64,000 bases of DNA. Source: Bacteroidaceae bacterium. Lineage in GTDB: Bacteria; Bacteroidota; Bacteroidia; Bacteroidales; Bacteroidaceae. The stretch's first letter is position 1; each line of letters opens with the position of its first letter. Both the position numbers and the translations under genes were made by a program. Under the pieces are notes generated by a model. The model had not been told where the DNA came from, did not search any database, and saw nothing but the letters and a program-made list of their open reading frames with translations. Shown in pieces: positions 1,939-62,825 of this stretch. The stretch covers positions 62,001 to 126,000 of the forward strand of contig JAFUHF010000021.1 in NCBI GenBank assembly GCA_017468985.1, given 5' to 3'.

Positions 1939-2273
1939 CCCAAGGGTCCACCATATCCCCAAATCAAGCCTTCATTTGCCCTAATAACCATCCATTAGGG
2001 CCAAATAAAGCTTCCATTCCCCCTAATCACCATCCGTTAGGGCCAAATAAAGCTTCCATTCCCCCTAATCACCATCCGTTAGGACCAAATAAAGCATCCA
2101 TTCCCTCTAATCACCATCCGTTAGGCCAAATAAAGCATCCATTCCCTCTAATCACCATCCGTTAGGGCCAAATAAAGCATTCATTCCCTCTAATCACCAT
2201 CCGTTAGGCCAAATAAAAGCCTTTATTCCCTCTAATCGCCATCCGTTAGGCCTAAATAAAGCCCCCGTTCTCT
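1939..2273. repeat. Tandem repeat tract A, about 8 units of 41-42 bp
   Basis: Units start at 1939 (degenerate), 1981, 2023, 2065, 2107, 2148, 2190 and 2232 (partial). Spacing is 42 bp except one of 41. The conserved phases of each unit are CTAATCACCATCCGTTAG, then GCCAAATAAAGC, then CCATTCCC. The CTAA...TTAG ends of the first phase are complementary. The tract fills the gap between the convergent genes rmlB and rsmF and holds no convincing reading frame. Three other tracts with the same period but different sequence occur at 15220, 40661 and 62616. Confidence 0.95.
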
Positions 2274-2287
2274 CCACCGAGAACCTA

Positions 2288-3685
2288 TTAAGCCCATTCA
2301 GCATCGCGATTCACGATAGAAAACACTTCGGGAGCCGCATTTTGACTGCGAATCTTCCATGGCTGGGGATACAGATTGTTAGCACGATCACCAAGCTGAT
2401 TCACAAAACCTAAGGATACCCCTCCATACATTACGACAACCATACCGCGCGGCACATCGTTCCCTAAACTCAACGATTGCCTTCGCAGATAGGCGATAGC
2501 GTCCTCATAGGTGAGATTCACCGTAGGAAAATGGTCGCGACGAAAAGCCAGACTCTGACTCAGACCATGCTCAGGCTGATAGGCCCCCCCCTTGCGCTGA
2601 GCCAATGCAACGCCAGCCGAAAGGACTGCGAGAAGCGGCAAAAACAACGAAACCACCTCCGCCAAGGCAGGAGGAAGGGCATACAGCGTTTCGCCTATTG
2701 ATATTTGGCCCCAACCGTCAGCATTTTGGAGCCATGGACGCAACTGACGGTCGAGCGGCAGCACACGCTGGCCTCCGCCGCGCTGCTTTGGGGCACGAAC
2801 AGACCGTTCTTTACGTAACAAAGCGACAAACAGACCCTCTCCACGCAATTTGTGAGGCATGAAACGGCACACGGGAAGATTTTCGCCCTGAAGCAGGCTA
2901 CCCACAATGCCCCAAGCCGGATCTGTGGGAATTTCCATGCAAGAGGCACCCAGTTCGCTACAAATGCGCTGCACTTGGAGCTCATTCTCCCTTAGGTTGT
3001 ATGTACAAGTGCTGTAAATCAAGTAACCACCCTCTGCCAAGGCTGGCCAAGCGTCAGAAACAATCTGGAACTGACGCGCTGCGCAATGCTCAACGTTCTG
3101 GACAGACCACTCGGAAAGCGCAGGATTGTCCTTGCGGAACATTCCCTCACCGGAGCAGGGCGCGTCGATGAGCATCAGATTGAAAAAGCCCTCCAACGAA
3201 GCAAAAGCCGCCGGCGATGCATTGGTTACGACCACAGAGGGATGTCCCCACTTCGTCATGTTCTCCATCAGCACCTGGGCACGCTGGCGTACGGGCTCAT
3301 TGACCACTAAGACGCTCTCGTCCGGCAGCAGAGAGCGGAGCAATGTAGACTTTCCACCCGGAGCTGCACAGAGGTCAAGCACTCGCATCGCCACTGGTTC
3401 ACACTGCCTCACGGCTTGCTCTATAAACATGGAAGAAGGCTCTTGCACATAGTAGGCTCCGGCATGAAGAAGAGGATCGAAGGTAAATGGTAACCTTTCG
3501 GACAAATAATAGCCCAAAGACGACCACGGGACAGGCTGCAAGTCCCCCACAGCACAGAATCCCTTCCGTCCATTAGGGCGAAAGGCCACAGCAGCATCGC
3601 TTTCAAGCGAAGCCGAAAGGCGAAGGAAGTCCTCCGTACCAATGAGCTCCTTCATCTGTTGGGTAAACGCTTCGGGTAACTGCAT
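2288..3685 (-). CDS. rsmF: NOL1/NOP2/sun-family rRNA (cytosine-C5) methyltransferase, RsmF-like
   Basis: SAM-dependent RNA m5C methyltransferase; RsmF of E. coli modifies 16S rRNA C1407. The SAM-binding motif DLCAAPGGKS is at residues 104-113. The two conserved cysteines are in DAPCSGEGMFRK (C177) and in YSTCTYN (C227). The first 90 residues are the family N-terminal region, and the C-terminal third (about 290-465) resembles the RNA-binding/PUA-like extension of RsmF rather than the shorter RsmB. The gene is 153 nt downstream of the Wzz-like gene on the same strand, so it may have its own promoter. Stop is TAA. Confidence 0.92.
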   Translation of the reverse strand: MQLPEAFTQQMKELIGTEDFLRLSASLESDAAVAFRPNGRKGFCAVGDLQPVPWSSLGYYLSERLPFTFDPLLHAGAYYVQEPSSMFIEQAVRQCEPVAMRVLDLCAAPGGKSTLLRSLLPDESVLVVNEPVRQRAQVLMENMTKWGHPSVVVTNASPAAFASLEGFFNLMLIDAPCSGEGMFRKDNPALSEWSVQNVEHCAARQFQIVSDAWPALAEGGYLIYSTCTYNLRENELQVQRICSELGASCMEIPTDPAWGIVGSLLQGENLPVCRFMPHKLRGEGLFVALLRKERSVRAPKQRGGGQRVLPLDRQLRPWLQNADGWGQISIGETLYALPPALAEVVSLFLPLLAVLSAGVALAQRKGGAYQPEHGLSQSLAFRRDHFPTVNLTYEDAIAYLRRQSLSLGNDVPRGMVVVMYGGVSLGFVNQLGDRANNLYPQPWKIRSQNAAPEVFSIVNRDAEWA

Positions 3686-3838
3686 GGGAAGCCGGGCAGG
3701 TATGGATAATTCGTTATTGCAACTGCGAAGTTACGAAAAAAGGGAGGAGAATGCTCTCCACACCTACAAAAAACTTCGGGCAAACGCCTCATGGCGCCTG
3801 CCCGAATTGCATTATGCTCATTCAAACGTTAATCTGAC

Positions 3839-4966
3839 TTAATCCATACCCAAAAGGGGCTTCAGGTCATCTTCCTTGTAGAGCACCCAAGCCGTAGTGG
3901 CCATGAAGGCAAGAAACAAGAATACCAGACACATCATAGCACGCTTAGGACCTGCTTTAAGCACCGGAACAGTGGCACTTTGGAGCGTGGTAAAAGCAGG
4001 TGTGTCTTCCTGCACCTTTGCTTCGGCAGCCATGAGCTGCGCAGCCACCTGAGTATACGCATTATACTGCAACTGCGTTTCGTTTTCAAGATCAACCTCT
4101 TTTTGGCGCACTGTCTGGAGAATGATATCGTGATTGGCATCCACAAACTCGGCCAACTCATTGCGTGCAGTCTCATAACGGGCTTTGGTCTCCTCGTAGA
4201 TCTTCTTGTTATACTCTAAATCCACGCGAGCCTTCGACGTGCGATAGTCGGTGATGAATTCCTGAAGTCGATTCTTCACTGAGTCAGCCATGGTGGCCGC
4301 AATGAGAGGATTTTGGTCCTTCACGTTGATGGTAATGACCATAGTTTTGTTATCTACATCGCAAACAACCTTCTCATCAATGGTTTTAGCAATCAGATCC
4401 TGCTGCATTGTAAGGCGAAAAGGATTCAGATGTTCAGGCTCTTTTTCCTCGCCCTTGATAAGCTTAACGATGGCTTTTTTCAGCCCACCAATAATCATCT
4501 TCCACCAAGGAGCCTTCTGTTCGTCCTTCAGGTATTCGTAATAGGACATCGTGCGGTCGTGTTCGCCCTTTTCCTTATCACCTTCGATAGTTACAGGAAC
4601 GTGGAAAAGGCTGGTCTTGAAGTCTACGGAGTTTACAAGGTCAGGATAGAGCGTGGGGAAGAGCGCTTCTGTGCCCACACCTCCGGCTTGCGGTAAATTC
4701 ACGCCGAAACTCGATGCCAAGCTGGCTAATCCCGTAGTACTCTTACCGCTGGTCATTTCAGGACTGAGTTTCACCGTACAGCTATAGTAGTTGGGAATAC
4801 TCAAGGCGAGAATGGCCGATACCACGAACACGATAGGCAGTACTTTATAATAAAGCTTTCTATGTTTGAGCAAGTCACGGAAAATCTTCATAAAATCGAT
4901 CGACCGCTCTTCTTGCAAGGCTTCGCTGTTGTTAACAATATCTTCTGACATCATTGTTTTACTCAA
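3839..4966 (-). CDS. Wzz/GNVR-type polysaccharide chain-length determinant protein
   Basis: Inner-membrane polysaccharide co-polymerase that would control chain length or couple export of a surface polysaccharide. The 375 aa show the family layout. A cytoplasmic N-terminus is followed by a transmembrane helix at about 38-57, then a proline/serine-rich periplasmic start. A long central helical region follows (about 215-300, heptad-like, rich in E, K and A), and a second membrane helix lies at about 343-363 near the C-terminus. There is no tyrosine-kinase domain. It starts 18 nt downstream of the SLBB export gene, so the two form an operon. The exact polysaccharide is unknown. Confidence 0.88.
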   Translation of the reverse strand: MSKTMMSEDIVNNSEALQEERSIDFMKIFRDLLKHRKLYYKVLPIVFVVSAILALSIPNYYSCTVKLSPEMTSGKSTTGLASLASSFGVNLPQAGGVGTEALFPTLYPDLVNSVDFKTSLFHVPVTIEGDKEKGEHDRTMSYYEYLKDEQKAPWWKMIIGGLKKAIVKLIKGEEKEPEHLNPFRLTMQQDLIAKTIDEKVVCDVDNKTMVITINVKDQNPLIAATMADSVKNRLQEFITDYRTSKARVDLEYNKKIYEETKARYETARNELAEFVDANHDIILQTVRQKEVDLENETQLQYNAYTQVAAQLMAAEAKVQEDTPAFTTLQSATVPVLKAGPKRAMMCLVFLFLAFMATTAWVLYKEDDLKPLLGMD

Positions 4967-4984
4967 AAATGGGTGAGAATTTAT

Positions 4985-7450
4985 TTACTTAGTCATGTAG
5001 GAAATGGCCGTTACCATGGCAGCAAGGCTGGTGAGTCCACTCATAGCGCCAACCACTTCAGCAACTCTCAACGGATTCTTTTTCTTCTTGCTGGGCACTA
5101 CGATTTCGCAGCCTGGCTCAGGACGCGCACCCTTACGGGTAAGTGCAACGGTTCCATTCTGGTATACGATGAAGGTTTTTTTCTTCCTGGCATGGTTACC
5201 AAAACCTCCGGCCATCTCTACATACTGCTTGTACTTCTTTCCCTTCTCATAGAAGACGGTATTGGGGAACATTACATCGCCCGACACCTTGACGATGCCA
5301 TTATATTCAGGTATAAAGATACGGTCACCTTCGCGTAGGATCACATCAGCATCGGAACCAGGCTTCAGGAGTGCTGCTTCGAGATCAATGGCCACAGGAT
5401 AATTGTTTCCCAGATCCAATTTCTCATAACTAACGCTATCGCCACGCTCCGTGAGCAGCTGACGAATGGCTTTCATCGTTGCTGACATTCTGACCCTCTC
5501 CTCATCTGTCATTCGACGTAAAAGAGTGGCCCCCTTGAGGTATGCAAACTCTGTAACGCCTCCAGCGCCACTAATGGCATCAGACAGACGCTGTTTTTTG
5601 TCCTTGAGCGTAAATGCACCTTCGTAGTTGACTTCTCCTGTGAGAGAAATATTCCGTGCAGTATGGAATGCGGGACTTTTACGAACATGTACAACATCGT
5701 AGGGCTTCAGTAGGAACTTTCTATCCTTATCTATCACCAAACCATCCTTGATATCGAAAGTAAAGTCTTCAGAGATGCGATCTGTCTTCTGCGTAGCATG
5801 CGCATCAACAATTCTGCGCGATACGTCAACTCGTGCGAGTGAAGCTTGGTCTGTTAGGCCTCCGGCCTGAACGATAAGGTCCTCAATGGTGGTATTATCG
5901 GCATACTCATAGGTACCTGGGCTCATTACCTCTCCAGTTATGGTCAACGTACGCTCCATTCGAAGGTCTTCCTGCGTTGGAATGAATAAAACATCTTCGT
6001 TTTGCAGCGGAACGTCAGGAGAAGTGCCATTAAGGATACCTTTAACGTCAATGGGAAGGATTTCCAAGCTACGGTCAGCTTTCAGACGATGAAGAACGGC
6101 GTGATCGGTGAAAGCGTCTTCCGTTACGCCTTCAGCCGACTCTATGAGGGTCTTCACACTACTCACGTTACCTCCCAAATGGAACTGACCTGGGCGGAAT
6201 ACGGCTCCCTTGATTTCCACCATATTTTCGTAACGGTTAATCATTCCGTCCACGGTTACGGCATCACCATCTTCCACCTGGAACGAACCCATTTCGAATT
6301 CTCCCACATTATATACGGCATAACGCTCACCGCTCTGGCGCACCAAACGCACCGTTTTGGTGTTGGCATCGCTCGTGTAGCCTCCAGCATACTTAATAAG
6401 TGTGGCAACAGTTTCGGTCTTTCGCATTTCGTAGAACATAGGACGCTTCACGTTACCGGTAATACCTACCAACGTTTCATAAGGATCTACCTGAATGAGG
6501 TCATTGTCCTGAAGATTAATATTTCCAGCTAAACGTCCGTTAAGAATGTATTCGTAGATGTCAACCACGGTAACGAGGCGGCCGTTACGGTAAACCTTAA
6601 CATTACGGAGCGTACCGAGCGTACTGATGCCTCCGGCACGATACAAAGCATGGAACACAGTGGCAAATGCGCTCAAATGATACGTTCCAGGCGAACGCAC
6701 CTCTCCCATAATATTGACCATAATGGTTCGGGTGTTACCTACAGTAACCTTAAGCTCGCTCGTCTGATAACGCGAGCCTAACGTAGAGCGCAGTTTGCGC
6801 TGAGCACCTTCAACGGTAAGTCCGCTGAGATAGATAGGGCCATATCCGCTTACAGTGATAGTTCCTTCTGGGGAGATAGTGTGAATAATGGTCTGTTGCG
6901 ACGCCCCATAAATGTCTACGACCACCTGATCGCCAGGACCAAGCACATAGGTAGATGGGATGGGCATATTTTCGTTTGGTTCGAAAGAAAGACCATGCTG
7001 GGTGAATATATCACGACCGAAAACACGCTTACCTTGTGCGTCAGGAGCAATTCCCTGCGTGGCTTGCACATCATGCTCAGCTTCAGTCACATCTTCGCTG
7101 GCATTAGCGTAAACCTCTCCCGTGGTGCCTCTTTTGGCCGTATTGAGCTCCTGCGACGTTGTTCCGTCTGAGTTTGCATTCATTCTTTCGGCAGCCATCT
7201 TCACGGCACCGTCAGCAGCAGTACTGGCACCTCTCTCGGAAATCTGTTTGTCATATTGATTGCGCAAACGGCGAATCTGGTCTATCTTTACGCCTCGTGC
7301 AATCAGTTTATTGATGATCTGCCCCTGTGATGTGCCTGCTTTTGCCTCGCTGGCAATGAATTGCATCACTTGCGTGTCACTCATGCTCTGCGCCAGCATC
7401 GTAGTGACGCATAAGAGCGAAAAAATCAGAGTTAAAACACCCTTCCTCAT
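4985..7450 (-). CDS. SLBB-domain outer-membrane polysaccharide export protein (Wza-like)
   Basis: An 821-aa protein with a Sec signal peptide at residues 1-20 (ending TMLAQ). A Poly_export domain follows at about 165-225, with the typical VLGPGDQVVVDIYG start. Several SLBB repeats come next, recognisable by phrases such as GEVRSPGTYHL, GNVKRPMFYEM, GEVMSPGTYEY and GDVMFPNTVFY. A hydrophobic, alanine/glycine-rich C-terminal helix (about 795-818) may span the outer membrane as in Wza. It is larger than E. coli Wza (about 380 aa) because of extra SLBB repeats, a common form in Bacteroidetes. It precedes the Wzz-like gene by 18 nt and has a TAnnTTTG promoter about 70 nt upstream. Confidence 0.92.
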   Translation of the reverse strand: MRKGVLTLIFSLLCVTTMLAQSMSDTQVMQFIASEAKAGTSQGQIINKLIARGVKIDQIRRLRNQYDKQISERGASTAADGAVKMAAERMNANSDGTTSQELNTAKRGTTGEVYANASEDVTEAEHDVQATQGIAPDAQGKRVFGRDIFTQHGLSFEPNENMPIPSTYVLGPGDQVVVDIYGASQQTIIHTISPEGTITVSGYGPIYLSGLTVEGAQRKLRSTLGSRYQTSELKVTVGNTRTIMVNIMGEVRSPGTYHLSAFATVFHALYRAGGISTLGTLRNVKVYRNGRLVTVVDIYEYILNGRLAGNINLQDNDLIQVDPYETLVGITGNVKRPMFYEMRKTETVATLIKYAGGYTSDANTKTVRLVRQSGERYAVYNVGEFEMGSFQVEDGDAVTVDGMINRYENMVEIKGAVFRPGQFHLGGNVSSVKTLIESAEGVTEDAFTDHAVLHRLKADRSLEILPIDVKGILNGTSPDVPLQNEDVLFIPTQEDLRMERTLTITGEVMSPGTYEYADNTTIEDLIVQAGGLTDQASLARVDVSRRIVDAHATQKTDRISEDFTFDIKDGLVIDKDRKFLLKPYDVVHVRKSPAFHTARNISLTGEVNYEGAFTLKDKKQRLSDAISGAGGVTEFAYLKGATLLRRMTDEERVRMSATMKAIRQLLTERGDSVSYEKLDLGNNYPVAIDLEAALLKPGSDADVILREGDRIFIPEYNGIVKVSGDVMFPNTVFYEKGKKYKQYVEMAGGFGNHARKKKTFIVYQNGTVALTRKGARPEPGCEIVVPSKKKKNPLRVAEVVGAMSGLTSLAAMVTAISYMTK

Positions 7451-7516
7451 GTTACTATATGTCTTATTTATATGTAATTATTAATCCAAAAGTGATGATG
7501 AGATAATTTTGATGTG

Positions 7517-7524
7517 CAAAGATA
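7517..7524 (-). promoter_or_regulatory. Bacteroidetes -7 promoter element for the export operon
   Basis: Minus strand TATCTTTG followed by GC, 66 nt upstream of the SLBB gene start at 7450. Confidence 0.6.
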
Positions 7525-7706
7525 GGCAAAAATATCCAAACGTCCTTACAGTTAGCTCTTTTTCTTTTACAGATGGCGTGATTAAGTACCCAAAATACGT
7601 CCTTACGTATAAACATCAGAACAAGCACGACCATAACAGCCTAATAAAAACAAAGAGTAACGATGTTTTATGTTTTAAGGGCATAGTGCAACCCAAACTT
7701 TTTCGC

Positions 7707-7714
7707 TACCTTTG
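7707..7714 (+). promoter_or_regulatory. Bacteroidetes -7 promoter element
   Basis: TACCTTTG followed by CG, 20 nt before ATG 7735. The predicted transcript start leaves a very short leader, which argues against the upstream TTG at 7717 as the start codon. Confidence 0.6.
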
Positions 7715-7734
7715 CGTTGCCAAAACAAAAAACA

Positions 7735-8349
7735 ATGAACAAGGCACTACAAGTTCTATTACTGCTAATCGTAAGCCTCTTCCCAAAGGCTGTGGCGCAG
7801 TTAAACTCCTCGCAAAGTTCTACCGGAACGTCTATCACCGTAGTTTCAGACACCACTGATGCCGAAGACGATGCCTTAAGCATTGACACCACCTTTTATG
7901 TGCCTCAAGGAACGAGCAATTTAAAAATCGTAACTCCGGGAAAACCCACCCTACCCGACTGGTTCCCCCTAAACGTGGAAAGCTGGTTCGGGCTGTTGGG
8001 TTGGGGAAGCCTGGCCATCTTCATCGTGTTTATGCTCATTGGTTTGGCCGTCATATTCTCTCCTATAGGCCTCATCATATTAGTCATATACCTTATTAAT
8101 AAGCAAGACCGGAAGAAACATACGACAAACATAGCCAAAACCGACACCATACCGACCTACGCACTTCCACCCACCACAGAACAAAGAAAAGACAAGGCCA
8201 TCCTGCACATGGCATTGGGAGTAGGCGTCTGCATTTTATTTTACATCATTCACCTAAAGGTAGGTATCGGAGCAGGAATCGTTATCTTGCTTTACGGCGT
8301 AGGCGAGATGATCAATGCCCTGCGCCACCGTAACGACAACCGACAATAA
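7735..8349 (+). CDS. Membrane protein of unknown function, DUF6249-like
   Basis: A 204-aa protein with a signal-like N-terminal hydrophobic segment ([22 protein letters not shown]), a polar linker of about 60 residues rich in S, T and D, then a strongly hydrophobic stretch (about 88-125). A cytoplasmic-looking charged linker (KQDRKKH) follows, and two short helices near the C-terminus end in RHRNDNRQ. The layout resembles Bacteroidetes DUF6249 membrane proteins, but I am not certain of the family. It lies 14 nt upstream of thyA and is probably co-transcribed with thyA-folA. Start chosen at ATG 7735 because of the promoter at 7707. Confidence 0.7.
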
Positions 8350-8363
8350 CACATCTGCAAATC

Positions 8364-9158
8364 ATGAAACAATACTTAGATTTATGTCAGCGCATTCTGA
8401 GTGAGGGCGTAGAAAAGCACGACCGTACTGGCACCGGCACTATCAGTGTGTTCGGCCACCAGATGCGATTCAGCTTGGATGACGGTTTTCCACTACTCAC
8501 CACCAAGAAACTCCACCTAAAATCCATTATATACGAACTATTGTGGTTTTTGCAGGGAAACACGAATGTCAAGTGGTTGCAAGAGCGTGGAGTGCGCATC
8601 TGGAACGAATGGGCAGACAAAGACGGAAACCTCGGACATATCTATGGATACCAATGGCGCTCGTGGCCTGACTATAAAGGCGGAACCATCGACCAAATAC
8701 AGCAAGCCATTGACCAAATCAAGCACAATCCTGATTCTCGACGCATCATTGTGAATGCTTGGAACGTGGGTGATTTGGAAAACATGAACCTGCCGCCATG
8801 CCACATGTTTTTTCAGTTCTACGTAGCCCAAGGCCGCCTCAGCCTGCAAATGTACCAGCGCAGCGCCGACACCTTTCTCGGTGTGCCGTTCAACATCGCA
8901 TCATATGCGCTACTGCTCCAGATGATGGCACAAGTTACAGGACTAAAGGCTGGCGAATTCGTGCATACCATGGGTGACACTCATATATACCTGAACCATA
9001 TTGACCAGGTCAAGCTGCAACTTACTCGCGAACCACGCCCATTGCCAACGATGAAGATCAATCCAAACGTGAAAAGCATTTTCGACTTCCAATACGAGGA
9101 CTTTGAGTTGGAAAATTACGATCCGTGGCCTCACATTCCGGGAAAAGTATCTGTTTAA
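8364..9158 (+). CDS. thyA: Thymidylate synthase ThyA
   Basis: Converts dUMP to dTMP with methylene-tetrahydrofolate, producing dihydrofolate. Its 264 aa equal the E. coli length. The catalytic cysteine is C146 in [10 protein letters not shown]. The substrate-binding segments [12 protein letters not shown] (20-31), [10 protein letters not shown] (126-135) and the folate-site [17 protein letters not shown] are all present. The dihydrofolate product is recycled by folA, which starts 17 nt downstream, so the pair is functionally coupled. Confidence 0.98.
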
Positions 9159-9814: not shown

Positions 9815-9822
9815 TACCTTTG
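9815..9822 (+). promoter_or_regulatory. Bacteroidetes -7 promoter element for the riboswitch-nrdDG transcript
   Basis: TACCTTTG followed by CATG, immediately 5' of the predicted riboswitch P1 helix at 9829. The transcript would therefore begin right at the aptamer. Confidence 0.65.
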
Positions 9823-9828
9823 CATGCC

Positions 9829-10003
9829 GTACAGAGGTTCCCATTCTAATCAATGGAGATGAACAGGGAATCTGGTGAAAATCCAGAACTATCCCCGTAG
9901 CTGTAAGTTCCACACAAAAGGACATTGAAGGAATGCCACTGACAATATCATACGGTTGGGAAGGCACAATGTCTGGAACAAGTCAGAAGACCTGCCTCTG
10001 TTA
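9829..10003 (+). ncRNA. Cobalamin (B12) riboswitch upstream of nrdD
   Basis: The aptamer elements are all visible. A P1 helix forms between CAGAGG (9832-9837) and CCTCTG (9995-10000). The core phrase GGTGAAAATCC is followed by CCCCGTAGCTGTAA. GGAATGCCACTG and TTGGGAAGGCAC give the conserved GCCACTG and GGGAAGG segments. The B12 box AGTCAGAAGACCTGCC lies at 9981-9996. About 140 nt separate the aptamer from the nrdD ATG, enough for an expression platform, but I cannot fold it with confidence. Cobalamin binding would be expected to repress nrdD-nrdG. Confidence 0.95.
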
Positions 10004-10141
10004 CCATCCGTTTTTACGATGCTTCGGGAGAAAAGCAGTAAAACAATGCATAGACGGAGAGTTTCCTCGTTCGTTTACCATTGATACCTGCCTACCCCTA
10101 CATTTTAAGACTACTGACAATAAATTTAAAAAGTAAACATA

Positions 10142-15219: not shown

Positions 15220-15477
15220 CTCAGGAAGGCCCGGGAAGTCAACCGACGCAGCATTCCCTACACTCGGGGACGCCCGGGAGGTCGACCGACGCAGCGTTCC
15301 CAATACTCGGGGACGCTCGGGAGTTCGAATGACTCAGCATTCCCTACACTCGGGGACACCGGGAAATACGTATATTTCAGAACTTCCTATACTTGGGAAC
15401 GAAGATAGAAACGTGGGGATAGATATTTTCGATACTCAGAAAACAAGAATCGCTCTATATATAATAGTCTGAGGCAT
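15220..15477. repeat. Tandem repeat tract B, six 43-bp units
   Basis: Units start at 15220, 15263, 15306, 15349, 15392 and 15435, exactly 43 bp apart. The first four share CTCGGGGACGC, then GACGCAGCATTCCC, then TACA at the end. The fifth and sixth are strongly diverged but keep phase (CTTGGGAACG, CTCAGAAAAC). The last unit overlaps the 3' end of the LuxR-type gene. The tract lies between two convergent genes. It is GC-rich, unlike tract D, and has no open frame that follows the period. Confidence 0.93.
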
Positions 15478-24205: not shown

Positions 24206-24387
24206 TTGTTGCATTTCCAGTTGAGTAATGCAACATTTTCCGTATTTTTGTTGCAATTCATGTACGAAATTGCAACAACCACCCATCCTTTTGTTGCAAA
24301 ATAATTTGGAGATGCAACAAATCTCGTGGAATTGTTGCAATTCCACTATAGTTTTGCAACATTTACCCAGGTATTTGTTGCAAAACT
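24206..24387. repeat. Cluster of five distinct hairpins with GTTGCA/TGCAAC cores
   Basis: Stem arms are: (1) TGTTGCATT 24207-24215 with AATGCAACA 24227-24235. (2) TTGTTGCAATT 24248-24258 with AATTGCAACAA 24268-24278. (3) TTTGTTGCA 24290-24298 with TGCAACAAA 24313-24321. (4) GTGGAATTG 24326-24334 with CAATTCCAC 24338-24346. (5) AGTTTTGCAACA 24350-24361 with TGTTGCAAAACT 24376-24387. All arms are perfectly complementary, loops differ in length and sequence, and stems differ outside the core. The cluster lies upstream of the promoter at 24455, in the gap between the gingipain-like gene and the AraC-like gene. Confidence 0.95.
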
Positions 24388-24531: not shown

Positions 24532-25080
24532 ATGGACCACCAAAATCCTGCCATCGACCAGCAGCCTGAAATCAATATCACGGTGCCTGCCTCCCGACAG
24601 CTGCATCGCCGCGAGCTCCGCAAGCCGGCTCAGTTTAGCTTCGACGAGCTCTACATTTCTCCCTTCAGGCAGAAACGCCAGTACGACAACGAAGGGCAGT
24701 GGAAGTACGTGGACTTTCCCCGGGACCTCCAGCCCACGGGCATTCACGTGATGGATGACCTGCTGCAATACCTCATGCAGGGTAACAGCTCCTTGGAGCG
24801 TTTTGCTACCGAACAGGGGCTCACCGTGGCGGAAGTCAGTGCGCTGGTCTTCGTCCTCACCGGCATCAGGTGCAGACGCTTTCAGCAGCTCTATCAGGTC
24901 AGGCTCATCGACGACCTGCTGCGCTTCACCGACTTGGAATATGAAGAAGTGGCCCAGCGCGCCGGCATAGGCACGCGCTTCAACCTGTTTCGGACCATAC
25001 AGCGCGAGCACCAAATGTCAGCATCCAGACGTCGCGCCTATCTTCGTCAGAACAACGACGAAGGACGCTTTCTGCTCTAA
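24532..25080 (+). CDS. Small protein with divergent AraC-type helix-turn-helix
   Basis: A 182-aa protein. The N-terminal 70 residues are charged and proline-rich without a recognised domain. The C-terminal region, about 108-172, follows the AraC pattern. FQQLYQVRLIDDLLRFTD resembles the YR..RA..LL..T segment, EEVAQRAGIGTRFNLFRTIQ the (I)A...G(F)....F.R.F segment, and QMSASRRRAYL the SP..YR segment. It lacks the usual large sensing domain. It could regulate neighbouring genes and could be tested for binding to the repeated TTGCAAC sites just upstream; that link is speculation. The coding sequence is complete with a TAA stop. Confidence 0.7.
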   Translation: MDHQNPAIDQQPEINITVPASRQLHRRELRKPAQFSFDELYISPFRQKRQYDNEGQWKYVDFPRDLQPTGIHVMDDLLQYLMQGNSSLERFATEQGLTVAEVSALVFVLTGIRCRRFQQLYQVRLIDDLLRFTDLEYEEVAQRAGIGTRFNLFRTIQREHQMSASRRRAYLRQNNDEGRFLL

Positions 25081-40660: not shown

Positions 40661-40884
40661 GAACAATCCGTGTGAGTAAGGCCGTGCCATACTGGAACAG
40701 CAAGACTACCCCAGGAGTGTCAACCCGTTCCATACTGAAACGGCGAGACTACCCCAGGGAAGTCATCCGTTCCACACACGCACGGAGAGATTACCCCAAG
40801 GAAGCCGCCCCGTTCCACACAGGAATGGCGAGACTACCCCAGGGAAGTCATCCGTTCCACACGCGCACGGAAAGATTACCCCAA
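40661..40884. repeat. Tandem repeat tract C, period 42/43 bp, upstream of a paralogous gene family member
   Basis: Units start at 40661 (degenerate), 40704, 40747, 40789, 40832 and 40874 (partial). From 40704 the spacing alternates 43, 42, 43, 42. Shared phases are GA(C/T)TACCCCA(G/A)GG, then CCGTTCCACAC, then CACGGAGA or AATGGCGA. Units 40747 and 40832 are almost identical, so there is also an 85-bp higher-order repeat. The alternating length breaks any reading frame, so the tract is not coding. It ends 129 nt before the gene at 41013. Confidence 0.94.
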
Positions 40885-41012
40885 GATCATTCTTTTACAA
40901 ACGACAGATGAATATCCCAAGCGCAAGGGAATCTTAGATCAGGGCACCCATCATTATCGTCTGGCCAGACATGGTTGCCCAACATTATTAACTTCAATTT
41001 TTTAACAATCAA

Positions 41013-41858
41013 ATGATTCAGAAAGTTAAATCAATCAATGTGAAGAAATTCACTACAGCTCAGAGTCAGCAGTTTCTGATGAACTCGTATGGCCACATGA
41101 CGGCCAGCGAAAAGCTGAGCGAAAAGTTTGCAGCCGACATTTCGGCTTTCCAAATTGCTAATGAAGAATTTGACGACCAGTTGAAAAAACTGAGAGTCAA
41201 TCTTAAAACCAAGGATGTAGTAGCAGCTAAGAAAAGAGTGGGCAAGGCATACAGCGTTGTCCACAACATGATTCGCTGCCTCAACATCATCAGTCCCACG
41301 GATGCACTGGCAAAAAGTGCCTACAAGATGAAGCTCCTGATAGACAACTACCAGATTAAGCCCAAGATGGACATGTCATCGCTGAGCGACCTGATTTACA
41401 ACCTCACCACTGACCTCTCATCGGACGAATACTCCGCTGACGTGAAGGCTCTCGGATTGGACACATGGGTAAAATCCCTGATTCATGAAAACGACGAGTA
41501 CTTGAAGGTGATGAAAAACAGGACCCAGGAAATGCTCCCCAAGGGCACCAGACACCTCTGGGCATCCAGAAAGAAAGCCGAGGAGGCCTACAGACAGGTC
41601 ATTCAGCACCTGAACGCCGTACTCCTCGTGCAAGACACCACGGACTACGACAGCTTCGTCAGCACCCAGAATCTGGAGATACAGTTTCAGAAGCAAAGCG
41701 TCATCGGCCAGAACAAGAGAGTGAAAACCCTGGAAGAAAAGCAGGACAAAGAACCGTCCAAGCCCACTTCCGACGCCACCCTCCCCTCTGCCCCATCAGA
41801 CGAAGCCGACGGAACCGAATCCTCGCAGGAAGAAACGTCAGAACAGCTCGCACAGTGA
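41013..41858 (+). CDS. Helical protein of unknown function, possibly DUF6261 family (paralogue of 62874)
   Basis: A 281-aa protein without signal peptide, predicted almost entirely alpha-helical, with a low-complexity acidic/Ser-rich tail from about 240 to the end. It is clearly homologous to the 244-aa protein at 62874. Paired segments are RVGKAYSVVHNMIRCLNIISPTD / MGNTYRALYMIVKGMSICPTD, LGLDTWVKSLIHEN / LHLRPWVDQILQAG, KKAEEAYRQVIQHLNA / LKAEQAYRELIETANA and NKRVKTLEEK / NKRVRTLQKK. I think the family is DUF6261 of Bacteroidetes, but cannot confirm. Both copies have a 42-43 bp tandem-repeat tract directly upstream. A hairpin terminator follows at 41891. Confidence 0.8.
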   Translation: MIQKVKSINVKKFTTAQSQQFLMNSYGHMTASEKLSEKFAADISAFQIANEEFDDQLKKLRVNLKTKDVVAAKKRVGKAYSVVHNMIRCLNIISPTDALAKSAYKMKLLIDNYQIKPKMDMSSLSDLIYNLTTDLSSDEYSADVKALGLDTWVKSLIHENDEYLKVMKNRTQEMLPKGTRHLWASRKKAEEAYRQVIQHLNAVLLVQDTTDYDSFVSTQNLEIQFQKQSVIGQNKRVKTLEEKQDKEPSKPTSDATLPSAPSDEADGTESSQEETSEQLAQ

Positions 41859-56393: not shown

Positions 56394-56827
56394 ATTCTTT
56401 GGGTAGCCTTATGAATAATATAAGTTACGATGCCCCAAACCTGAAAGGATTCATCGGGCATCACTTTAATGGGGGAATATTGTGAATTGGCCGGAATCAG
56501 CAACATGTAATCCTTGTGCGGTTCCAGAATTTTTAGAGTAAATTCTCCATTTAGAAAGCATACTGCCATGTCACCCTTTTTAGGCCGTAGTGACTTGTCA
56601 ACCACCAGTATGTCGCCCTCAAAAACCATCGCATCCTCCAAGGAATCGCCTATTGCCCTAGCAAAAAAGGTACTTGCCTTATGGACGATGAGTTCTTTGT
56701 TCAGATCAATGGCCTCTGACATATAATCTTGCGCTGGTGAAGGAAAGCCAGCCCTCACACCACCGTCAGCATAGGGTAGTTCCAACGACGTACCAGTGTC
56801 AGCGGAATAGATCTCAAGATTACTCAT
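56390..56827 (-). CDS. umuD: UmuD, self-cleaving S24-family partner of UmuC
   Basis: The 145-aa protein would be activated by RecA-stimulated self-cleavage at A26-G27 in RAGFPSPAQDY. The catalytic Ser is S62 (IGDSLEDA) and the Lys K99 (EFTLKIL), close to E. coli S60 and K97. ATG 56827 gives the normal UmuD length; the longer reading adds an unrelated basic stretch. It lies 37 nt after the aldose-epimerase-like gene on the same strand, and no strong promoter is visible between them. No LexA-type box is recognised. Confidence 0.95.
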   Translation of the reverse strand: MSNLEIYSADTGTSLELPYADGGVRAGFPSPAQDYMSEAIDLNKELIVHKASTFFARAIGDSLEDAMVFEGDILVVDKSLRPKKGDMAVCFLNGEFTLKILEPHKDYMLLIPANSQYSPIKVMPDESFQVWGIVTYIIHKATQRI

Positions 56828-56864
56828 TCTAAATTCTTCCTGAAAAAAATATCCTGCCAGTTTA

Positions 56865-57779
56865 TTATTTTTCCTTCTTGATGGACATAGCACTCCGCGA
56901 TATTTCAGCATCCATATGGAGCGTATAGCCCATTTCTACATAGTGTCCAGGAGCTACCACATTGGTATAGGGTCTGGCATAGAAGTCTCCTTTGAAATTC
57001 TCTGCATCACAAAGGCCATACCAAGGTTCTAAGCACACAAATGGAGCGTCAACTCCGTAGGGCGACCATAATAACAATACCGGAGCATCAAAATCCATAG
57101 AGACATAGGGTCGCTGCTTTAAATCATACAGCGCAATATACTTCACTTGGGATCGGTCAATGATAATTGCATCGTTTTTGAAGCATTCATCAGTGATCTC
57201 CAATAGATTTTTGACCATGGGAATATCATACCGATCCTCGCTCAGACATCCTGAACTCCCTACTGCAGCACTTTCAATGGGTGACGGACGTCTAAAACCG
57301 GCATAAGCCTTTACCTTTGACCCTTGTTTATACTCTGGATAGTTAATTCCAGGGTGGCCACCTATGTGAAAGGGCAAAATCTTGACGCCTGTATTGAGTA
57401 CTCGCCATATAACCTTCAGTTGGTTGGCCCTCAGTTTGTACGTCACATCTATGCGGAAGGGAAATGGAAATATACGATGCATCTCCGGAGTACTTTCCAA
57501 TCGATACACCAGAAGTCGGTCATTCTGATCAATCTTCGAAAATGGTGCATCACTCACAAAACCATGCTTGGGCAACTCGTAGGTTTCGCCGTTGATTTTC
57601 GTTCTTCCGTCGCGCAACTTGCCTACCAATGGAAAAAGCAGTGGACTATGTCTGTTCCAGAACCGCCCATCACCGTTCCACACATAGTTAATGCCGGTAC
57701 GTATGCCCTTAATGCTCACCACCTCGGCACCTACGTTTTCCACTCCTATTTCCAACCATTTATTCTTGATGATATCCAT
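56865..57779 (-). CDS. Aldose 1-epimerase family protein (LacX-like), cytoplasmic
   Basis: A 304-aa mutarotase-like beta-sandwich protein without signal peptide. SPLLFPLVGKLRDG, LPKHGFVSDAPF, FHIGGHPGINYP (candidate catalytic His) and FVCLEPWYGLCDAENF (candidate Glu) fit the LacX/aldose-epimerase subfamily rather than GalM. The substrate is unknown. It is upstream of umuD in the same direction, and a -7 element lies 41 nt before its start. Confidence 0.88.
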   Translation of the reverse strand: MDIIKNKWLEIGVENVGAEVVSIKGIRTGINYVWNGDGRFWNRHSPLLFPLVGKLRDGRTKINGETYELPKHGFVSDAPFSKIDQNDRLLVYRLESTPEMHRIFPFPFRIDVTYKLRANQLKVIWRVLNTGVKILPFHIGGHPGINYPEYKQGSKVKAYAGFRRPSPIESAAVGSSGCLSEDRYDIPMVKNLLEITDECFKNDAIIIDRSQVKYIALYDLKQRPYVSMDFDAPVLLLWSPYGVDAPFVCLEPWYGLCDAENFKGDFYARPYTNVVAPGHYVEMGYTLHMDAEISRSAMSIKKEK

Positions 57780-57820
57780 GATTCTGCTATTTACTTGTTC
57801 TACTGCATCACATTAGGCTA

Positions 57821-57828
57821 CAAATTTA
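57821..57828 (-). promoter_or_regulatory. Bacteroidetes -7 promoter element for the epimerase (and possibly umuDC-helicase)
   Basis: Minus strand TAAATTTG followed by TAGCC, 41 nt upstream of ATG 57779. Confidence 0.5.
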
Positions 57829-57976
57829 GGAATTTTTCAGACAGCCACTACCTTCAAATAAGAAAGTATACGTTTTATTAACTTATTTAGACATTACTAA
57901 GCGGCCAAACAACACCTGTACCAGCATCGTAGCTTAAAAAACAGCCTTGCAACATACCCGATTGACAGAAAAAACG

Positions 57977-57984
57977 TATATTTG
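57977..57984 (+). promoter_or_regulatory. Bacteroidetes -7 promoter element for the aminopeptidase P gene
   Basis: TATATTTG followed by CGC, 16 nt before ATG 58001. It excludes the in-frame start at 57947. Confidence 0.6.
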
Positions 57985-58000
57985 CGCAAAAATTCACACT

Positions 58001-59401
58001 ATGTTTACAAAAGAAACTTATATACAACGCCGAAGCGCCCTTAAGGCACAGCTTGAGAGCGGTATTATTCTCATATTAGGCAATAACGAAAGTCCTGTTA
58101 ATGGTCCATATAACTGCTACCCCTTCCGACAGGATAGTTCTTTCCTCTATTTTTTCGGTGCACAACGCGATGGCTTGGCTGGCGTACTCGATATTGACAA
58201 TGACAAGGATTATCTCCTCGGTGATGACATCGACATTAACGACATTATATGGTATGGCAGTGTAGATAGCGTGGCCGATATGGGTAAAGCAGTAGGCATT
58301 AAGGATACTGGAAAGTTCTCCTACCTCCGAACACTCCTCGACAACGCTCGCCAAGCAGGTCGAACCATTCACTTCCTACCCCCTTATCGCCACGATCACC
58401 AGCTATTACTTCAGGACCTCATTGGGTTCTCGCCATCACAGCAGGCAGAACAGTCATCCGTAGACCTGATCAAGGCTATTGTGAAGCTCCGATCCGTAAA
58501 AAGCGACGAAGAGATTAAGGAAATTGAACGTGCATGCGCCGTCGGCTTCAAGATGCACACCACAGCGATGAAGCTATGCCAACCCGGAGTAACGGAACAC
58601 TTCATTAGCGGCATGATTAGCGGCATCGCAGAATCGTTCGGAGCAATGGTGAGCTTCCCGTCGATTGTTTCCATGCACGGCGAAGTGATGCACGGCTATC
58701 CGGGCGAAAACCACTTGGAAGCCGGACGTCTCTTGCTCTGCGACGCCGGTGCGGAGACTCTCTCTCACTATTGCTCAGACAACACGCGCACTACTCCCAT
58801 TAGTGGTAAGTTCACCAATAAACAAAAGGAAGTCTATTCTATCGTTGAGCAGTGTCACGATCTAGCTCTGGCCGCTGCTCGGCCCGGCGTTCTTTGGTAT
58901 GATGTTCACATGAACGTATGCCGGCACATCGTTGATGGCCTCAAGGACCTCGGACTGATGAAGGGCGACACCGAAGAGGCCGTACAGGCAGGCGCACACG
59001 CCTTGTTCTTACCTCACGGATTAGGCCACATGATGGGAATGGACGTACATGACATGGAAGCATTGGGCCAACGCTATGTAGGCTTCGACGACGAGATACA
59101 GCCATCCTCCCAGTTCGGTCTGGCCAGCCTGCGCATGGGTCGCCGCTTGCAAGAAGGCTTCGTAGTGACCGATGAACCTGGCATTTACTTCATTCCTGCA
59201 CTCATTGATCTCTGGAAACGCGAAGGCACCAATGCGCAGTTCCTCAATTTCGACGCCATTGAGAAGTATCGCGAATTTGGTGGCATTCGCATTGAAAACG
59301 ATCTGCTCATCACCGCCGAAGGTGCACGCATGCTGGGCCGTGACCACATACCTTACCACATTGATGAGGTGGAGGATTTCTTAGCCAAGAACCAGTATTA
59401 G
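58001..59401 (+). CDS. pepP: Xaa-Pro aminopeptidase (M24B)
   Basis: Removes an N-terminal residue preceding proline. The 466 aa have an N-terminal creatinase-like domain (MFTKETYIQRRSALKAQL ... FRQDSSFLYFFGAQRDG). The C-terminal pita-bread metalloprotease domain has metal ligands in LLLCDAGAETLSHYCSDNTRT (two Asp), HGLGHMMGMDVHD (His), TDEPGIYF (Glu) and GGIRIENDLLIT (Glu). ATG 58001 agrees with the promoter at 57977. It appears monocistronic. Confidence 0.95.
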   Translation: MFTKETYIQRRSALKAQLESGIILILGNNESPVNGPYNCYPFRQDSSFLYFFGAQRDGLAGVLDIDNDKDYLLGDDIDINDIIWYGSVDSVADMGKAVGIKDTGKFSYLRTLLDNARQAGRTIHFLPPYRHDHQLLLQDLIGFSPSQQAEQSSVDLIKAIVKLRSVKSDEEIKEIERACAVGFKMHTTAMKLCQPGVTEHFISGMISGIAESFGAMVSFPSIVSMHGEVMHGYPGENHLEAGRLLLCDAGAETLSHYCSDNTRTTPISGKFTNKQKEVYSIVEQCHDLALAAARPGVLWYDVHMNVCRHIVDGLKDLGLMKGDTEEAVQAGAHALFLPHGLGHMMGMDVHDMEALGQRYVGFDDEIQPSSQFGLASLRMGRRLQEGFVVTDEPGIYFIPALIDLWKREGTNAQFLNFDAIEKYREFGGIRIENDLLITAEGARMLGRDHIPYHIDEVEDFLAKNQY

Positions 59402-59494
59402 GTTTTCCTCTATTTTCATTTCCATGAGCACGTTCTGCCCATAGAGTTCAAGTCAGTAAAATATCTTAATTCATATATTCACAACTTATTCAAA

Positions 59495-60694
59495 ATGACC
59501 AAATCATCCATTCTAAAGTCATTTCTACTCTCTGGCCTGCTGGTATGCTCCGGCAGCATCATGGCCGAAGACAAAGACTCAACCGTATTCACTACCGTTG
59601 TAGAGAATCCCATTACTCCTGTCAAGAATCAGTATCGTTCAGGCACTTGCTGGGCCTTTTCGTCCTTAGGATTCTTCGAAGCAGAACTGCTTCGTATGAA
59701 AAAGGGCACCTATGACCTGTGCGAAGCCTACTTGGTTCACAAAACCTACGAGGATCGCGCCCGTGCAGCCGTGCGCATGCATGGTGATGTATCGTATTCC
59801 CAAGGCGGTAGTTTCTACGACGCCGTTTACTGCCTGCGCAACTATGGCATCTGCCCTGAAGACGCCATGCCTAAACCCGGAACGTTGGTAGGTGATACGC
59901 TTTTCAACTTCAACGAGCTCAATGCCGTGAGCGGAGCCTTTGTTGAAGCTCTTGCCAAAGGCAAGCTCAAGACGCTTTCCCCTGCATGGCCCAACGCGTT
60001 CAGCGGCCTGCTTGACGCCTACATTGGCAAAGTGCCCGAAACCTTCACATACGAAGGAAAGACCTATACGCCACAGAGTTTTGCCCAAAGCCTGGGACTG
60101 AACATGGACGACTACATAAGCCTCACCTCGTTTACCCATCACGACTACTACACCAGCTTTGCCATTGAGGTGCAAGACAATTGGCGCTGGGGCCTCAGCT
60201 ACAATCTGCCACTCGATGAGTTCATGGAAGTCATGGAGAGTGCCATCAAGAACGGCTATACCTTCGCATGGGGTGCTGACGTAAGCGAAGACGACTTTGG
60301 CCGCCGCGGCGCACACGAGGGCATTGCTTTAGTGCCCGAGGGAAAGACCAAAAGCGATGCTACCGGTTCCGATCAGGCTCGCTGGATCGGCACTTCAGGC
60401 GACAAAGAGCAGACCGAGAAGGATATTAAGGGCGAAAAGGTCATCACCCCAGAGCTTCGTCAAGAGGCTTACGACAACTGGAACACCACCGACGATCATG
60501 GCATGGTAATATATGGTCTGGCAAAGGATCAAAACGAAAAGGAATACTACATGATGAAAAATTCATGGGGCGACTACAACCGCTATCATGGTTGCGCTTA
60601 TATTTCGAAAGCCTACATGGCCTACAAAACCATGAACATCCTGATTCACAAAGACGCACTTCCCAAGAAAATTGCCAAGAAGCTGCATTTGTAA
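59495..60694 (+). CDS. Secreted C1B-type (bleomycin hydrolase/aminopeptidase C-like) cysteine peptidase
   Basis: A 399-aa papain-clan peptidase with a signal peptide (residues 1-24, GSIMA). The oxyanion Gln46 and catalytic C52 are in VKNQYRSGTCWAFSS, the catalytic His in TTDDHGMVIYG and the Asn in MMKNSWGDYN. The long insert between the Cys and His halves, with THHDYYTSFAIEVQDNWRWG, is typical of the C1B bleomycin hydrolase/PepC group. Export differs from classical cytoplasmic PepC but is common in Bacteroidetes. A strong terminator follows at 60714. Confidence 0.94.
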   Translation: MTKSSILKSFLLSGLLVCSGSIMAEDKDSTVFTTVVENPITPVKNQYRSGTCWAFSSLGFFEAELLRMKKGTYDLCEAYLVHKTYEDRARAAVRMHGDVSYSQGGSFYDAVYCLRNYGICPEDAMPKPGTLVGDTLFNFNELNAVSGAFVEALAKGKLKTLSPAWPNAFSGLLDAYIGKVPETFTYEGKTYTPQSFAQSLGLNMDDYISLTSFTHHDYYTSFAIEVQDNWRWGLSYNLPLDEFMEVMESAIKNGYTFAWGADVSEDDFGRRGAHEGIALVPEGKTKSDATGSDQARWIGTSGDKEQTEKDIKGEKVITPELRQEAYDNWNTTDDHGMVIYGLAKDQNEKEYYMMKNSWGDYNRYHGCAYISKAYMAYKTMNILIHKDALPKKIAKKLHL

Positions 60695-60713
60695 TCCTTC
60701 TTATTATATAAGG

Positions 60714-60746
60714 AAAGCACCAGAAGCTAAACGCTCCTGGTGCTTT
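60714..60746 (+). terminator. Rho-independent terminator
   Basis: AAAGCACCAG (60714-60723) pairs perfectly with CTGGTGCTTT (60737-60746), followed by TGTTTTTAG. Confidence 0.85.
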
Positions 60747-60836
60747 TGTTTTTAGTCCTCCAATAGAGTAGCCAATGGATGACCGAAATCTTCTGTTCGT
60801 ACAATAATGACCATCGGGCGCCTCACTGTCCTACTT

Positions 60837-62484
60837 CTAAAATTTGCGGTCTACACCACGTGACACTTCTACTCTCCGATGACGCGGATTACCCGGATAA
60901 ACCCTTACCAGAGCCACCCCATGGGGTGCAACCTCTGTATCGAACCGTTCTGTATCCTTTATTTCGGCCACATCCTTCTGACGCCATACGTCGCGCACCT
61001 TCTGAGTGCCACGAATGCCAAGGCTCTTGGGTATGAAGCCGATCGTAAGGGGCTGGTCAGAAATGTTGAACAGGCCGACAGCCATACTGCCATCCTCAAG
61101 CTGCTTGACGTAGGTTACGTATTCGGGTCTGTTATACATGCGGTAGCCCTGTATACCTAAGGGATCTTGATTTATATCGTTTACTTCACTGTTGCATAAC
61201 AGATTTATCGTAAATGGATCGAGTTGTGACATGTCACAACCAATGAGCATCGGTGATGCAAGCATGGCCCAGAGTGAAATATGGGTATATTGCTCGTCCG
61301 GAGTGAGGTGGGTATAATGCAAGTGAGGCCCCCATCCCACCATGCCTACTACAAGCATGTCGGGGTCGGCCCAATGACCCGGCCCATTGAAGGCAGCCCA
61401 CTTGTCCTGCCCCCTGGAAGCCTATGCTGAAGACGCTTTTCCAGTTGTCCCTGATGTCACCGGTGGTACGGAAACAGTTGAGTTTCTCTTTCCACACTGG
61501 TGCATCGCCATAAGGTGCCGAATTGGAAAGGCTGTAGACGATGTCACGGTTAGTGGAGCGCAGAGCGTCGTGCATTTCGCTTGCGTAATAGAAATCGTTG
61601 GGGTTCCAATCGTATTTCAGGTAGTCAATACCCCAATCAGCCCATTGTTTGGCGTCGTTCGATGCAAAGGAATACATCCCGTGATAGTAGTGTTCCTTAC
61701 GAACAGTCCTTCCTTCAGGATCCTCGGGAGTGGTATACTTGTAATTTTCGTTGTGTTTACCTTGTTTTATCCAGTCATAAGTGCCATCAGCATTGTCGCT
61801 CTGGCTACCAATGTGGCCAGCATAGGTGCCCACCCATGGACCGGAGTAAATACCGAGCTTAAGCCCCATGGCATGCACGTCGTCGGCGAGTTTTTTCATG
61901 TTAGGAAACTTGCGGTTGGTCTGAATGCCGTTGTATTTTCCACCGCGAATGCCCTGCCAACCATCGTCTATGTTAATATAGTTCCATCCGTAGTTAATCA
62001 GCCCCTTGTCCACCATAGCTCGGGCGGAACTCATCACCTTCTCTTGGCTCACACTGTTTCCCCAACAGTTCCAGCTGTTCCAACCCATAGGCGGAGTAAG
62101 CGCCAAACGGTCGCCCACCTCTATGCGCAAGTCGCGTTCGGCCTTTCCAAGACTGTTTTGAGCATAGAGCTTAGCATGGTAGGTTCCTGCCTTCTTTACT
62201 TTTCCGGAAATCTGGCCCGTTTCCTGGTTTACCGTGAGTCCTTTAGGAAGGCCCTCGGCCCAGAACTTCATAGGACGCTGTCCGGTGGCAGCAATCGTAT
62301 AGAGGAAGGGGGAACCCGGCCTCACGCCAAAGGCTTTCGCACTGTTGATGCGCGGAGTAGCCGGTGCAGGAGGAGTGAGAATGTAGGGAGTGTAGTCAGG
62401 AATGTCGCTTTGCGCACTGACTGATGTGCCTCCGAGGGCACACATCAGGGCCATAGCCCCGATCAACAAGGTTTTGTGATTCAT
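60837..62484 (-). pseudogene. GH27 alpha-galactosidase with a one-base frameshift
   Basis: The frame from ATG 62484 has a signal peptide (1-24), an Ig-like putative carbohydrate domain (about 30-123) and a GH27 barrel. LTPPMGWNSWNCWG, the catalytic Asp D292 in LKYDWN and the acid/base region FRTTGDIRDNW are present. At the G run read from plus-strand C's at 61410-61414 the frame shifts. With one G fewer it would continue QGQDKWAAFNGPGHWADPDM and join the downstream frame (PDMLVVGMVGWG...) to TGA near 60837. As written the product ends after about 416 residues and loses the barrel end and the C-terminal domain. A real mutation, phase variation or homopolymer error is possible. Confidence 0.88.
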
Positions 62485-62522
62485 CTTAAATTAATTATGG
62501 CTATTCTGTTAAAATTCCCACG

Positions 62523-62530
62523 CAAAATTA
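62523..62530 (-). promoter_or_regulatory. Bacteroidetes -7 promoter element for the GH27 gene
   Basis: Minus strand TAATTTTG followed by CGTG, 38 nt upstream of ATG 62484. Confidence 0.55.
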
Positions 62531-62615
62531 CAAAAACATTCCCTCCCACCCAAGAAGATGGCGTGATTTATGTTACAAAATCTCATATAACATGCCTGAT
62601 TCCCGTCTCTCAACG

Positions 62616-62825
62616 GCCATAAACAGCAATTCTACCGCCGTTTATACAGACTCTACCATGTAATTCATTATGACTGAAAATGTTTATATTAAATTACATA
62701 TGTAATTCTATATGATATAGAATGTTTATTTAAAATATTATATGCTATTTATCTATACATAAAATTTACATACATAATTACAGATGTAATTCTAATTTAC
62801 AAGAAATTTTCTTCATGAAATACAA
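62616..62825. repeat. Tandem repeat tract D, AT-rich, period 42 bp, upstream of the second paralogue
   Basis: Units start at 62658, 62700, 62742 and 62784, exactly 42 bp apart, with a weaker in-phase unit at 62616. Shared phases are ATGTAATTC at unit position 1 (62658, 62700, 62784) and GTTTAT at unit position 25 (62616, 62658) or 24 (62700). Units 62658 and 62700 are the most similar; 62742 is strongly diverged. The tract ends 48 nt before the start codon at 62874. Its AT-rich units bear no resemblance to the GC-rich units of tracts B and C, yet the period is the same. Confidence 0.8.

Follow-up and report, generated by a model that had tools for sequence, protein, structure and literature searches.

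Plasmid iterons are direct repeats recognised by a Rep initiator with a winged-helix fold, and in type III toxin-antitoxin systems such as ToxIN the repeats function at the RNA level, with a ribonuclease as the toxin. As described in the available portions of the sources, the dispersed intergenic REP/REPIN repeat families have a RAYT tyrosine transposase as partner (PMC3116915), and BrickBuilt of Porphyromonas gingivalis is a minisatellite combined with a miniature inverted-repeat transposable element that has a 23-nt unit of one sequence, a leader, a tail and inverted-repeat ends (PMC4596501). The subject here is four intergenic tandem-repeat tracts (A to D) in a 64,000-nucleotide stretch, hereafter the window, of the draft genome of a Bacteroidaceae bacterium (GenBank assembly GCA_017468985.1, contig JAFUHF010000021.1, positions 62,001 to 126,000), and the genes for DUF6261 (PF19775) proteins that adjoin two of them. 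In many genera of the order, DUF6261 genes are preceded by arrays of fixed unit length and free unit sequence; in this genome, members of these unit families also occur as solitary copies, mostly at 3' intergenic sites. DUF6261 proteins probably dock on their private upstream arrays along one face of the DNA, with four helical turns per unit, and solitary copies appear to have spread from the same families, a reading that is based on sequence comparison.

Like iterons with Rep, the arrays consist of direct repeats at intervals of whole helical turns and adjoin the gene of the presumed binder. Unlike iterons, they occur as many unlike arrays per genome, many of their units include two dyads, solitary copies exist, and DUF6261 is not known as an initiator; instead of a single plasmid-like origin there are 15 DUF6261 loci on 13 contigs, and the arrays lie among ordinary genes of a 179-kb contig. 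A tandem repeat array upstream of a single protein gene is also the layout of ToxIN, but the present arrays give a strand-symmetric signal, DUF6261 is predicted to be all-alpha, and no known type III toxin family was matched over the cut-off. The likeness to REPIN/RAYT lies in dispersed intergenic repeat families with a nearby partner gene, 26 solitary arrays sharing a family with a DUF6261-adjacent member. Unlike the hairpin doublets of REPINs, as presented in the available portions of that source, DUF6261 arrays are head-to-tail with fixed unit length and have no tyrosine (Y1) transposase. BrickBuilt likewise comprises many-copy intergenic tandem repeats without spacers in a Bacteroidales species; in contrast, the flanks of same-family arrays of this genome have no common ends, and no linked gene family is described for BrickBuilt in the available portions of PMC4596501. 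Within the scope of open-licence papers, the array-DUF6261 system is considered new in kind, since for every known array family tested at least one defining feature is lacking here; its working principle would be familiar. No record of the pairing was found among the open-licence papers listed; the one paper among them that names DUF6261 is about Streptococcus, with no link to arrays.

Coordinates of the tracts and associated genes are listed in Table 1. The initial annotation had described four unrelated tracts sharing a 42-43 bp period, and both the tracts and the common period were confirmed by Tandem Repeats Finder (TRF), with which lag autocorrelation was concordant. TRF placed tract A at 1959-2262 (period 42, 7.3 copies), tract B at 15229-15364 (period 43), tract C at 40682-40885 (43/42 alternation, i.e. 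85) and tract D at 62658-62737 (period 42). In a scan of the window at lags 15-75, requiring 62% identity over 84 bp, tracts A, B and D passed, whereas no cluster at all appeared in 20 Markov-resampled windows; tract C passed with an 85-bp period only. Phase tracking of tract C gave 5 units and an array end 118 bp ahead of the ATG. Two dyads per unit, ~21.5 bp apart, can be read off its sequence, e.g. at 40810-40828 and 40832-40849. Tract A is flanked by convergent genes, a GDP-mannose dehydratase-like gene at 770-1909 (+) and an RsmF-like gene at 2288-3685 (-). Protein-coding repeats were ruled out, as periods of 41 and 43 bp break the reading frame and 1 of 33 arrays of this genome overlaps a called gene. 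At Rfam gathering scores, the known RNAs in the window were a cobalamin riboswitch (9818-10013, + strand) and a tRNA only, and the tracts were unmatched.

Table 1. Repeat arrays and associated genes in the 64,000-nucleotide window.
Feature	Coordinates	Strand	Description	Basis
Tract A	1953..2287	+	solitary 42-bp array, 8 units	tandem-repeat finding, phase tracking, clustering
Tract B	15229..15400	+	solitary 43-bp array, 4 units, with decay towards ~15477; between convergent genes	
Tract C	40661..40885	+	43/42-bp array immediately 5' of a DUF6261 gene	
DUF6261 (PF19775) gene	41013..41858	+	281 aa	Pfam E 2.2e-28
Tract D	62640..62807	+	AT-rich 42-bp array, 4 units, immediately 5' of a DUF6261 gene	
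Second DUF6261 (PF19775) gene	62874..63608	+	244 aa	Pfam E 1.3e-17
Array E	24207..24382		absent from the initial annotation; nine TGTTGCA/TGCAACA motifs, strictly strand-alternating, 20-22 bp spacing	
Gene for 182-aa protein	24532..25080	+	~150 bp 3' of array E	weak AraC-type helix-turn-helix match (HTH_18 E 0.044, below cut-off)

The two DUF6261 genes of the window score 99.5 and 64.6 bits against a Pfam curated cut-off of 27. Ten of the 15 genes over the cut-off in this genome (G000) have an upstream array of 40-43-bp units (loci L118, L120, L121, L122, L123, L125, L126, L127, L130 and L131). L128 and L129 have a 40-bp array of one common unit family downstream of the gene, and no array was found at threshold for L124, for the partial L132 or for L119, the identity of which at lag 42 is 0.57. 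Apart from L128/L129, the linked arrays of different DUF6261 genes have unlike units.

With a threshold of 58% identity over 84 bp at the best of lags 15-74, an upstream array was detected at 44 of 57 DUF6261 loci (42 of 55 after removal of duplicates) and, with the threshold fixed beforehand, at 17 of 29 loci of a second set. In every upstream match of both sets the best lag was 41, 42 or 43. The first set skipped 8 loci of genome G018 with <300 bp upstream and omitted L178, L185 and L187 (the same loci as L163, L152 and L173); L188, the upstream stretch of which is a run of N, was unused, and L179 and L184 were later dropped as duplicates. For L229 in the second set, a manually defined window was used, comprising the 600 bp up to position 2900. 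Only 2 of 699 random windows had an array. As random windows are mostly coding, matched upstream controls were added, and these showed an array ahead of 14 of the 460 non-DUF6261 genes examined in this genome and 1 of 267 open reading frames (ORFs) of six other genomes. In the sample of genome G111, DUF6261 included, 9 of 214 ORFs had an upstream array. Downstream of DUF6261, an array was present in 2 of 60 windows.

DUF6261 is encoded in 3 of 19 genomes of the genus, namely G000 (15 genes), G018 (17) and G015 (1), and in 14 of 119 genomes of the order, taken one per genus; several genera have one to few DUF6261 genes each, with arrays of their own. Among the carriers in which an array is present are a Bacteroides fragilis metagenome-assembled genome (MAG), Breznakibacter xylanolyticus DSM 6779, an Alistipes MAG, a Prevotellaceae MAG and the cultured Prevotella nigrescens FDAARGOS_1486, which has a 41-bp array at WP_004367630.1, with the annotated start inside the array. 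The P. nigrescens locus additionally carries, just ahead of its DUF6261 array, a near-perfect 120-bp tandem repeat of 3.3 copies (L229:2177-2572). All 26 arrays in a 433-kb sample of G018 have periods of 41-43, 84-86 or 126, and a 368-kb sample of G111 contains seven arrays at 41-42, one at 84, eight at 20-22 and three others; 8 of the 25 stretches from G018 and 8 of the 20 from G111 were picked for DUF6261 genes. Samples of 61-84 kb each from seven DUF6261-free genomes (G005, G007, G011, G019, G021, G025 and G026) gave no array with a score of at least 80 and a fundamental period of 40-43. G029, with no DUF6261 match, has one 44-bp array in 4.4 kb.

The units of 60 DUF6261-linked arrays are 41 (20 arrays), 42 (32) or 43 bp (8) long, and the mean of 41.8 corresponds to 10.45 bp per quarter unit. 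Dyads in these units were in excess of those after shuffling (427 compared with 373.8 ± 5.6, maximum 390 in 200). Of 49 units taken from other genomes, 18 have their second-best dyad at the half unit (8.8 ± 2.7 shuffled, maximum 18), as do 5 of 11 units from this genome (2.0 ± 1.3 shuffled, maximum 6). In arrays outside this genome, the Fourier spectrum of conservation between units peaks near 10.5 bp: power at 10.5 bp was 74.0 in 34 arrays, as compared with 51.7 under an autocorrelated null (p 0.01), and 44.4 against 22.9 in 15 new arrays (0 of 500 null), in which the whole-unit 42-bp component was also high (p 0.008). In a 42-bp unit, rhythms of 10.5 and 11 bp are inseparable. Conservation is, furthermore, mirror-symmetric about the dyad centre, with a correlation of 0.353 versus 0.012 ± 0.059 (n=36, 5 of them from this genome, for which alone p is 0.04). 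The symmetry survives correction for base-pair type and is seen also at mismatched, non-pairing positions. The averaged profile has a variable dyad centre and conserved positions 2-7 to either side of it, a pattern compatible with a pair of half-sites spaced by roughly one turn. The second half-unit dyad, the ~10.5-bp rhythm and the mirror symmetry are features of arrays outside this genome and are weaker or absent in it. The initial annotation had suggested a protein step spanning four helical turns; this is now the best-supported reading in view of the unit length, the conservation rhythm of arrays outside this genome and the adjoining gene for DUF6261, the likely protein. The A+C-rich strand runs with the DUF6261 gene in 32 of 43 unit families (p 1e-5).

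Arrays in the genome of the window were surveyed in the window, on contig C15, and 40 further stretches of the same assembly, together 672,212 bp of a 2.17 Mb draft (87 contigs, 78.65% complete). Seven stretches were chosen for sequence matches, five lie beside the window on its contig and the remainder were sampled by contig number; one stretch, L013, consists of N. Among 34 merged arrays with a TRF score of at least 80, three have a period of 40, 22 of 42, six of 43 and one of 84, the two exceptions being 21 and 108. With 31 of 34 at 40-43, the genome-wide distribution that the initial annotation had proposed to plot is narrow rather than broad in this sample, and the shared period is not due to chance. 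Comparison of orthologous loci between strains was not feasible, the nearest genomes sharing at best 58% of the residues of the tested protein. Twelve of 33 arrays are located at or near a contig end, and the assembly thus seems to break at arrays, so that their true number is probably higher; arrays in such positions also matter for genome assembly.

At 60% identity, 41 arrays of this genome, including those beside further DUF6261 genes, fall into 14 unit families (44 rows less an N-run row and two duplicates; 8 of the 41 stem from DUF6261 loci that were included deliberately). Of these arrays, 38 share a family with at least one array adjacent to DUF6261, 12 of the 38 being adjacent themselves and 26 solitary, and three have no such partner in the sample. 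The tracts of the window, said to be unrelated, are so in the case of D, which stands alone in the sample; A, B and C, however, have relatives elsewhere in the genome. Tract A matches an array on contig C37 (71%, E 6e-20) and clusters with the DUF6261-linked array L122/L051, its identity to the family being 0.56-0.71. Tract B clusters with L017 (0.93) and joins the DUF6261-linked L131 through L046 (0.72 and 0.70), the direct identity of 0.60 being equal to the threshold; in shuffled unit comparisons (n=300), 95% were below 0.51. The unit family of tract C recurs on contigs C8 and C55. Solitary arrays with both neighbours known are at 8 convergent, 8 co-directional and 1 divergent junctions, as compared with 32, 77 and 44 in the background, i.e. 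16 of 17 versus 109 of 153 are non-divergent. Outside convergent sites, and with the 40-bp family left out, the sense strand of the solitary array opposes the adjoining gene in 13 of 14 cases. In the 300-bp flanks, five same-family pairs share matches of 15-51 bp with no common end. In families 9 and 15 (L127, L126 and others), one half of the unit is common (CCAATTAGCACGTGTAAA-like) and the other different, as if half-units had been exchanged.

The 281-aa DUF6261 protein is predicted to be all-alpha (AlphaFold2 mean predicted local distance difference test score 89.8) with a low-confidence acidic C-terminal tail. The 50 VIA-align matches listed are generic bundles, with no DNA-binding fold among them, a result that excludes no such fold. 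Pfam gives DUF6261 only; the protein has no NCBIfam match over the cut-off, and its PADLOC match, to SduA, is weak (E 0.017). A single-sequence protein search returned the query alone, and the phage and plasmid collections yielded one record each, for one query. TAnnTTTG is a promoter motif; it occurs 6 times between array and ATG versus 3.3 expected and was rejected as a candidate.

Taken together, many DUF6261 genes are preceded by an array of their own, built of 41-43-bp units, to which the encoded protein would likely bind as dimers stacked along one helix face. Such binding may regulate the DUF6261 gene itself in an iteron- or operator-like manner. Solitary arrays could then be additional sites of docking, or passengers in the spread of which the cognate protein assists. 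The unit length would be held constant, as with a change of at least 2 bp the following site would no longer face the protein. Several observations weigh against this docking model. DUF6261 is not basic, its core being near-neutral in charge, and has no informative solved relative. Two paralogs of genome G129, L168 and L176, are 87% identical and have unlike arrays. No 10.5-bp rhythm was detected in 32 arrays of the genome of the window, nor a 10.5-bp peak in its pooled families, and among the units of the A, B, C and D families only those of C have a strong second dyad. The evidence for helical phasing thus comes from arrays of other genera, and extending it to tracts A, B and D would rely on the shared length and the link to DUF6261. 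Co-evolution between protein and unit sequences was weak and was set aside. In the L168/L176 pair, the C-terminal half is nearly identical and the first 172 residues are diverged, which looks like gene conversion of one half; positive selection was rejected for the diverged part (dN/dS 0.34).

It is also conceivable, albeit unlikely, that the array is transcribed and the repeat RNA bound by DUF6261 as in type III toxin-antitoxin systems, with solitary arrays serving as extra antitoxin or decoys. Tandem repeats of ~40 nt upstream of a gene match the ToxI/CptI layout, and on either strand the units have better fold energies than shuffled sequences (mean z about -1.5). However, the fold z prefers neither strand (-1.55 and -1.42, p 0.55). 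An RNA made from one strand is expected to show G-U use on that strand, and sense-strand dyad mismatches are not enriched in G-T (4 G-T, 10 A-C and 15 other). These observations favour duplex DNA as the more probable form, with RNA still conceivable. A length fixed near four helical turns, the conservation rhythm outside this genome, and the lack of a toxin family over the cut-off in Pfam or NCBIfam, with only the weak SduA match from PADLOC, likewise argue against an RNA system. An apparent antisense preference of RNA hairpins was rejected, as the effect was gone with a proper strand-specific null.

Similarly improbable is a selfish pair resembling REPIN/RAYT, in which DUF6261 would promote the copying of arrays to intergenic sites and have no regulatory role. 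It would account for the fact that most families have solitary copies, generally alongside a single array adjacent to DUF6261, and for the placement of these copies at non-divergent junctions; yet no transposase or nuclease was matched by the all-alpha protein, the copies have little shared flank and no common ends, and several genera have one to few DUF6261 genes with arrays of their own. The least probable explanation, which we consider very unlikely, is that the arrays are minisatellites generated by slippage at DUF6261 loci tolerant of them, with a period set by a polymerase or recombination step. Free unit sequences, the unlike arrays of the 87%-identical paralogs and the decay of tracts B and D at one end are in line with such an origin. 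It is contradicted by the restriction to 41-43 beside DUF6261 and to multiples of ~21 bp beside another protein family (see below), by the absence of 40-43-bp arrays from the samples of the seven DUF6261-free genomes, and by the mirror-symmetric conservation, which points to selection. Local duplication templated on any sequence, offered in the initial annotation, is not supported as the sole explanation, since individual unit families are found at more than one locus of this genome.

If DUF6261 does bind its arrays, the unit length is a direct readout of the step of the protein along the helix, and the many unlike arrays of a genome are a set of mutually independent protein-DNA address codes. 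The analysis unites minisatellites and a DUF of unknown function in a single system open to testing, for which partners and geometry are specified and organisms named. More tentatively, and with the balance against it, DUF6261 might found a class of repeat-anchored proteins, each gene building or keeping a private helix-locked array of free sequence, with a dozen orthogonal docking codes per genome and arrays seeded elsewhere; a family with a helical and an FN3-like domain would belong to it likewise with 21-bp units, spanning two helical turns rather than four. This second family is represented at L201:575-1195, with an array at 1669-1926, and has homologs among L231-L269. Upstream arrays at multiples of ~21 bp were found in 19 of 21 loci at threshold, one locus with a short upstream being left out. 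Homology between the two families was rejected (hhalign probability 5%). The DUF6261-free relatives G005 and G011 (L088, L093, L094 and L095) have 7-, 21- and 22-bp arrays that neither family explains.

Array E of the window has no adjoining DUF6261 gene, and is thus a separate example of the same geometry. Outside array E, the window contains seven further, dispersed copies of the TGTTGCA/TGCAACA motif.

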